51,358 nucleotides of DNA, taken from an uncultured bacterium (GTDB taxonomy: Bacteria > Cyanobacteriota > Vampirovibrionia > Gastranaerophilales > Gastranaerophilaceae). The stretch lies in contig CASFPN010000010.1 in the NCBI GenBank assembly GCA_949296425.1, positions 1 through 51,358 of the forward strand, given 5' to 3'. The position numbers and the translations under genes were made by a program. Positions 39,337 to 40,197 of this stretch are shown here, piece by piece (the first letter of the stretch is position 1; each line of letters opens with the position of its first letter). The notes under the pieces were generated by a model, which searched no databases, had not been told where the DNA came from, and worked only from the letters and a program-made list of their open reading frames with translations.

Positions 39337-40076
39337 TTATTCCATAATATATAAAGGGGAGCATCCCCATCCAGAGCCTGTTTCACAGTCCTCTTTATAA
39401 TTATCACGTGTGATAAGGGTGCAATAATTAGGACAGCTGCATCCGTTTGCACTATTGCCTGTGTCGTTTGTCCAGAAAACAGGTGTAAATTGATTGTCTT
39501 TTATAAAGAAATAAAATATATCTCTGCCAACAGTATTAGGTTTTTTATATCCGTTTACGTCTATAAAAACTTCATGTGTACAATTAAAATTTATCATTGC
39601 ACCGTCCGGCAATAAAAACGTTAAGGCTGAGTATCCCGGGTTTAATCTCATTTTTTCCCCTTTTTTATCGAACCATTCATCGTCATCGTGCCAGTGTATA
39701 TTTGAATTTTTTGGAATTGAATTTGTAGTATAATTCTGATTATTTGATAGTACTTCACATTTTATGCCTGAGCCGATTGATTTTAATTCTTTTCCTATTT
39801 CACAAACACAATATGGCCATTTTTCCCAACCGTCAGCTGCAGGAGTGATATAAGTACCATTTTTAGCATAAACCATTTGAATTGCCTGCGCAATAGTTGA
39901 ATATTGCTTTTTAAACATAGCTTTAAACTGTTTGTCCTGCGCATCATTAATTACTGCCGGCAAAGTTATTGCAGAAACAACCCCTATAATTCCGAGTGTA
40001 ATTAAGACCTCAGCTAGTGTGAAACCACTTTTCGTACGTGAGTTTTGCGGGGGGGGGGCATTTTGAGCTTTTTCAT
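39337..40076 (-). CDS. type IV pilin-like protein, off by one base at a C10 tract (phase-variable candidate)
   Basis: GGAGG (40084-40088) sits 7 nt before an ATG at 40076 that reads MKKLKMPPP, but the C10 tract (G10 at 40049-40058 on the plus strand) puts it out of frame, ending at a TAG at 40014-40016 after 19 codons. With 11 (or 8) C residues it would read on as ...PQNSRTKSG and then GFTLAEVLITLGIIGVVSAI, a prepilin cleavage site (G18/F19, Glu at +5) and TM helix, to the stop at 39337: 246 aa. In the present frame the only start is a TTG at 39963, inside the helix, giving no export signal. The globular part has six or more Cys. It could be a phase-OFF pilin/pseudopilin or a sequencing error. 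Confidence 0.85.
40049..40058. repeat. G10 homopolymer in the pilin gene 5' end
   Basis: Ten consecutive G (C on the coding strand), the longest G/C run in the window and placed in the sixth to tenth codon of the prepilin leader, before the cleavage site. Confidence 0.95.
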
Positions 40077-40197
40077 ATTTTTACCTCCTTTTATTATTAT
40101 GTTCGATTTACAAAATGTTGTCAATACTGTAGATTAAGGGCTGAGATTTCTGCTACTGACAAAAATGAATGTTAGTTTTAAAGCAAGGTCAAATCGT

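Follow-up and report, generated by a model that had tools for sequence, protein, structure and literature searches.

A C10 tract one base short of the open length in a type IV prepilin-like gene of an uncultured Gastranaerophilales bacterium: a probable member of a large phase-variable family that is OFF by default

A type IV prepilin-like gene on the minus strand of the window (the whole stretch analyzed here, 51,358 nucleotides, contig CASFPN010000010.1 of assembly GCA_949296425.1) is held out of frame by a tract of ten C that follows its sixth codon, and about 50 pilin genes of the source genome are put out of frame by a tract in the same way. The gene probably belongs to a large phase-variable prepilin family that is OFF by default and is switched by replication slippage, with few pilins ON in any one cell, a reading reached by sequence comparison. 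The source genome is a Candidatus Gastranaerophilales MAG of 2.0 Mb in 46 contigs, one of which, entire, is the window.

RESULTS

The Focal Pilin Locus

The features of the locus, in the order in which the minus strand is read, are as follows.

40124 to 40096, minus strand: sigma-70-like promoter 5' of the pilin gene, TTGACA and CATAAT spaced by 17 bases, assigned by consensus match (11 of 12 bases)
40090 to 40084, minus strand: Shine-Dalgarno sequence AAGGAGG
40076 to 40059, minus strand: start codon (ATG, 40076-40074) and six-codon leader, ATG AAA AAG CTC AAA ATG
40058 to 40049, minus strand: C10 tract, the candidate switch (G10 on the plus strand), with G after the tract
40032 to 40021, minus strand: prepilin peptidase motif KSG/F, with cleavage before F (codon 40023-40021)
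40016 to 40014, minus strand: TAG closing the frame at n = 10, with an OFF product of 20 amino acids
40023 to 39337, minus strand: mature type IV pilin-like protein, frame intact and including the stop codon, under purifying selection relative to orthologs and paralogs

Direct reading of the sequence bears out the elements on which the original prediction was built, namely GGAGG, an ATG at 40076, ten C after codon 6, and a stop at 40014-40016 after 20 codons. Its further claim, that 11 or 8 C would open a protein of 246 amino acids with a prepilin leader, also holds: at either length the frame reads MKKLKMPPPPQNSRTKSG/FTLAEVLITLGIIGVVSAITLP... up to a TAA at 39339-39337, the product opening with MKKLKMPPPPQNSRTKSG/FTLAEVLITLGIIGVV, and the N terminus scores above the cut-offs of PF07963 (25.5 bits, cut-off 21.2) and TIGR02532 (25.2 bits, cut-off 16.3). 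The N-terminal cleavage/methylation motif G/FTxxE and the hydrophobic helix of a type IV prepilin are both present; the product is a type IV prepilin-like protein, for which peptidase processing and assembly into a pilus are predicted. A scan of the sequence between the tract and the prepilin motif found no in-frame ATG, GTG, or TTG, and the prepilin leader can therefore be reached solely through the tract. The tract thus lies within the coding region and its length sets the frame, as in a contingency locus, with mutability in living cells presumed. The plus strand of the contig is G-rich (GC skew +0.074) and is probably the leading strand.

Two tract-bearing orthologs of the focal gene in other species (L252 and L254, 75% and 58% identical) both carry C10 and are one base short; they come from separately assembled contigs that bear metaSPAdes- and MEGAHIT-style names. 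The tract is missing from two other relatives (73% and 53% identical), and tract-free orthologs start plainly, for example L255 with AGGAGGTATTTATGAAAAGAGCT/FTLAEV. The dN/dS ratio of the focal gene against orthologs and paralogs is 0.16-0.29, and pairwise values among these focal-type pilins and two paralogs are 0.09-0.33. Since pilins that are out of frame as assembled are under purifying selection, the proteins must be made at times.

C/G Runs and Pilin Genes across the Genome

The source genome has 93 C/G runs of at least 8 bases, 73 of them exactly 10. Genome regions were retrieved locus by locus, and in the retrieved loci C/G runs of 6, 7, 8, 9, 10, 11, and 12 bases number 8, 0, 4, 5, 72, 7, and 4, respectively. 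Runs of A/T fall smoothly with length, whereas C/G runs are few at 6-9 and spike at 10. With 0.006 C/G runs of at least 10 expected by chance per window of such composition, and with no smooth tail of C/G lengths, chance homopolymers were rejected as an explanation. A C/G run lies within 900 bp upstream of 63 of the 97 N-terminal pilin matches in the source genome, where about 4 would be expected, and most related genomes hold from tens to 165 such runs each. The common layout is a Shine-Dalgarno sequence, ATG, 6-15 codons, C10 or G10, a linker of about 10-355 nucleotides (longer in a few), and then KCAFTLAEVLITLGIIGVVAA.

A conserved 25-bp motif, AGCTNAGRAKTG-C10-GAA, is strong in both coding classes of the source genome and mostly missing in congeners, and it was rejected as a functional unit. 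The general flank in the genus is at most TG-C10-G, and the sister genus does not keep it. The TG-C10-G motif occurs in 40 of 192 genomes and 10 of 45 genera of the order, patchily and confined to one family; six congeneric genomes (G031, G041, G013, G030, G032, and G002) have almost no C10 tracts. Viral contigs contained neither relatives nor the motif. MutS1 is present and complete in the bacterium, and loss of mismatch repair was accordingly rejected as a cause of mutability.

Near-identical gene copies differ in predicted state. Three pilin-like genes near contig ends, L070 (C8:1165), L074 (C14:1547), and L081 (C16:1379), are distinguished by a TG deletion and by C10/C11 differences, such that one copy is predicted to be ON and two OFF. 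At L123, two adjacent pilins (1463 and 4437) both have C10 and are flanked by CTGG and CTG, respectively, a one-base difference that leaves one copy predicted ON and the other OFF. In a congener (G011), a gene near position 1502 of L200 contains a G10 that is one base short; on visual inspection this gene resembles MotB/OmpA and not a pilin, so that the tract switch may extend beyond pilins.

The Open Length Is One Base above the Usual Tract Length

The ON length of each gene was taken as the tract length, 9, 10, or 11 bases, that yields a long frame when put into the tract. It is 11 in 56 of 64 readable tract genes of the source genome (p about 4e-19 against one third), all 56 having their own Shine-Dalgarno sequence, ATG, and long open frame at that length. 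It is also 11 in 59 of 65 sampled congener loci, at all actual lengths (8/8 for tracts of 9, 33/36 for 10, and 18/21 for 11), and in 24 of 25 loci of one genome of the sister genus, which are all pilins and have different flanks. It should be noted that the congener sample consists of one or two loci per genome, chosen non-randomly as to length; the unbiased figure is the count over 33 congeneric genomes, in which G-C9-G, G-C10-G, and G-C11-G number 79, 1458, and 95, so that 89% are exactly 10. As assembled, 7 of the 64 tract genes of the source genome are in frame, which is below one third (p 3e-5). Most tract pilins are therefore kept OFF by the lack of a single base.

The tracts differ in codon phase (IAPPPE, VPPPPQ, and CPPPR; GGGGTPEL, SGGGAF, and RGGG), and the one-base-short setting is common to three codon phases and both strands. 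Because of this variation in phase, the setting is not the inherited wording of a single leader. OFF frames meet an early stop, at a median of 14 nucleotides past the tract at n = 10, and the OFF state should therefore be tight.

Replication Polarity of the Tracts

All 63 G-C10/11-G tracts of the source genome agree in direction within their contig (18 contigs with more than one copy). Between neighboring tracts, direction flips in 2 of 50 cases in congener G007, 2 of 28 in G037, and 2 of 63 in sister-genus G060. The flips in G007 coincide with changes in the sign of GC skew, at about 630 kb in contig 2 and about 316 kb in contig 1, the latter within a few kilobases of dnaN, and at 57 of 69 loci in the source genome GC skew is negative on the strand that bears the C run. 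The poly-G of the tracts is on the leading strand. C/G runs of 4-7 bases near the tracts are unpolarized, and a general strand bias of such runs was rejected on this ground. The pilin genes run in both directions, with C10 in the mRNA of 20 of 64 and G10 in that of 44; because poly-G stays on the leading strand, gene direction determines which of the two is found in the message. The polarity thus tracks replication and ignores transcription, a pattern that favors a fork-associated process and disfavors slippage of the ribosome or during transcription as the principal purpose of the tracts.

Module Junctions and Linkers

In the C-coded genes, identity over the Shine-Dalgarno sequence, ATG, and leader is 0.97-0.99 up to the tract and falls to about 0.5 and then 0.4 beyond it. 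The G-coded genes share about 100 nucleotides 3' of the tract (0.92 in the first bin) and have unrelated 5' sides (about 0.43). L075 combines the 5' side of L109 with the 3' side of L110, the mosaic breaking at the tract. This mosaic and the sharp ends of homology indicate that exchange at or near the tract has occurred.

Some linkers (L145, L088, L147, and L109 in the source genome; L304 in G060) contain tandem decayed prepilin leaders such as RKSVFTLVKGATHVDLPISQ ahead of the genuine cleavage motif. The predicted leaders thereby reach about 200 residues at most, which is unusual for prepilins. The linkers of L095, L107, L112, L124, L149, and L187 share a conserved TATGNCATAATAGTGATATGNAACATCAC, which comprises a -10-like box, a palindromic GTGAT/ATCAC, and an in-frame ATG (MKHH...FTLAE). 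It is a candidate second promoter or leaderless start past the tract and might allow expression independent of tract length.

DISCUSSION

The architecture of the genes, the distribution of tract lengths, the common ON length, the replication polarity, and the purifying selection come directly from the data, and they fit a mechanism in which a length of 11 (or 8) bases would put the gene ON while the tract is kept at 10, leaving most pilins OFF in the consensus genome. DNA polymerase slippage during replication would add one base in a minority of cells and turn that pilin ON, a reverse step would turn it OFF again, and each cell would presumably display a small random subset of its pilins. The mechanism calls for a high rate of tract-length change in living cells, which we infer rather than observe, and the polarity of the tracts would on this account reflect strand-dependent slippage; for G.C6 frameshifts in Escherichia coli, a leading/lagging difference of 1.5- to 5-fold is cited in PMC3306285. 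That the coding-strand base, C10 or G10, follows replication and not the gene suggests a process tied to the fork. A more specific proposal can be advanced tentatively: such a process may fix the C/G tracts at exactly 10, with G always on the leading strand and at least 50 pilin genes per genome one base short, so that each cell would express a random sample of pilins; the tracts may double as points of module exchange and may involve a dedicated factor.

Several observations count against a switch. All tract-bearing orthologs of the focal gene have C10, the spread of tract lengths is narrower than in Campylobacter (PMC6321876), MutS1 is present, and some linkers contain an internal in-frame ATG behind a -10-like box. 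The narrow spread suggests that the mutability of the tracts may be low or that their length is otherwise held. Phase variation remains the best explanation of the locus, as originally predicted, but the mixture of lengths 8, 10, and 11 predicted with it did not appear: the tract-bearing orthologs are both 10, no tract of 8 was found in the motif, and the genus-wide count is dominated by exactly 10.

A pilin frameshifted by chance, an ordinary pseudogene, would account for the broken assembled frame, but it is scarcely credible when the arrangement recurs in orthologs and in about 50 paralogs, dN/dS is low, and the remaining frame is intact; the earlier view of the gene as OFF rather than decayed is favored by the C10 orthologs, the purifying selection, and the like paralogs. 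The same agreement of orthologs and paralogs led to rejection of an assembly error at the single locus, the form in which a homopolymer miscount had been named as the main alternative. A uniform miscall, in which every tract is truly 11 and ON and assemblies lose one base, fits an ON length of 11 at called lengths of 9, 10, and 11, and the Bifidobacterium breve study cautions that annotated G-tract lengths may be wrong (PMC9187656). It is nevertheless very unlikely, since the length of 10 recurs with different assemblers (metaSPAdes- and MEGAHIT-style names) and in genomes ranging from 5 contigs to over 200, tracts still read 10 where flank indels shift the open length to 10 or 9 (L074, L101, and L123; L080, L086, and L138), and Illumina is reported to read poly-G of such size accurately (PMC6321876). 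Moreover, it would then need explaining why a pure 11-mer should be fixed in every one of the three codon phases.

Programmed slippage, in which the DNA is unchanged and RNA polymerase or the ribosome slips one base on C10 or G10 so that all pilins are made at a low level, would suit a length of 10 that is nearly fixed over many species and a downstream frame that is kept open, and transcriptional slippage at tracts of this kind is discussed for B. breve (PMC9187656). However, it leaves the replication polarity unexplained, and C10 and G10 messages share both length and frame offset. Slippage would not be expected to give such agreement, because it should depend on whether the codons are proline CCC or glycine GGG, or the transcript C or G. 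Tracts of 11 bases that are in frame and uncompensated (18/21) also argue against it, and it is considered rather unlikely. The tract could instead be chiefly a recombination junction at which promoter-leader and linker-pilin modules are swapped, the frame being a by-product. Homology does stop sharply at the tract, L075 is a mosaic of L109 and L110, and a G-rich element at Neisseria pilE is used in gene conversion, but a one-base-short setting in three codon phases, on both strands, and in two genera with different flanks is not explained in this way. As the chief role of the tract, recombination is therefore quite improbable; as an additional role it may coexist with phase variation.

In the antigenic variation of Neisseria gonorrhoeae pilE/pilS, which involves a G4 element, gene conversion from silent cassettes feeds one expressed locus. 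Pilin diversity is tied to a G-run near the gene in both cases, but the genes described here are each equipped with a start, a promoter-like region, and a tract, and in place of silent partial cassettes lacking promoter and start and a single expression locus, 56 of 64 readable tract genes have their own Shine-Dalgarno sequence and ATG. The closest parallel is the sortase-dependent pilus of B. breve UCC2003 (bbr_0113 and bbr_1889), whose first pilus gene contains an intragenic G10/G11 tract and whose switching is attributed to replication slippage (PMC9187656). Like the present bacteria, that organism is a gut commensal whose pilus gene is OFF at the annotated length and has its frames joined by a change of one base, but B. 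breve has two loci per genome and sortase pili, as compared with about 50 genes for type IV prepilins here and as many as 165 tracts in a single genome, and ON requires one base fewer rather than one more; a replication-polarity rule is not reported in the passages considered (PMC9187656). In the Campylobacter phasome, too, surface-related genes contain poly-G/C tracts of 9-10 bases, numbering in the tens, and are ON or OFF according to frame (PMC6321876). That phasome differs in tract length (9 in 53% and 10 in 26%, against 89% exactly 10 here), in an ON fraction that is near neutral (about 11% here), in containing genes of many types (almost only pilins here), and also in the coding-strand base (PMC6321876). 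Orsi et al. (2010) described homopolymers at the 5' ends of genes, with early termination and reversible inactivation near the start codon (PMC2831843); the emphasis of their survey is on poly(A)/poly(T) runs no longer than 7 bases, in contrast to the pure C/G of 10, polarized by replication, described here. No report of phase variation in the Gastranaerophilales-type group was found in searches of an open-access library. Single elements of phase variation are thus already known, and the replication polarity, near-uniform length, and uniform one-base-short setting appear to be new.

In this Gastranaerophilales group, automated gene prediction will cut short dozens of pilins in each genome or assign them wrong starts, and a comparison of gene content between tract-poor and tract-rich members of the genus could reveal a tract-linked factor. 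Because the replication polarity is strict, natural tracts offer a direct test of the long-standing question whether slippage differs between the leading and the lagging strand. If the interpretation as phase variation is correct, these uncultured gut bacteria would hold one of the largest known phase-variable gene sets of a single type, mostly OFF in the modal genome, and would offer a testable design for surface diversity within a clone.
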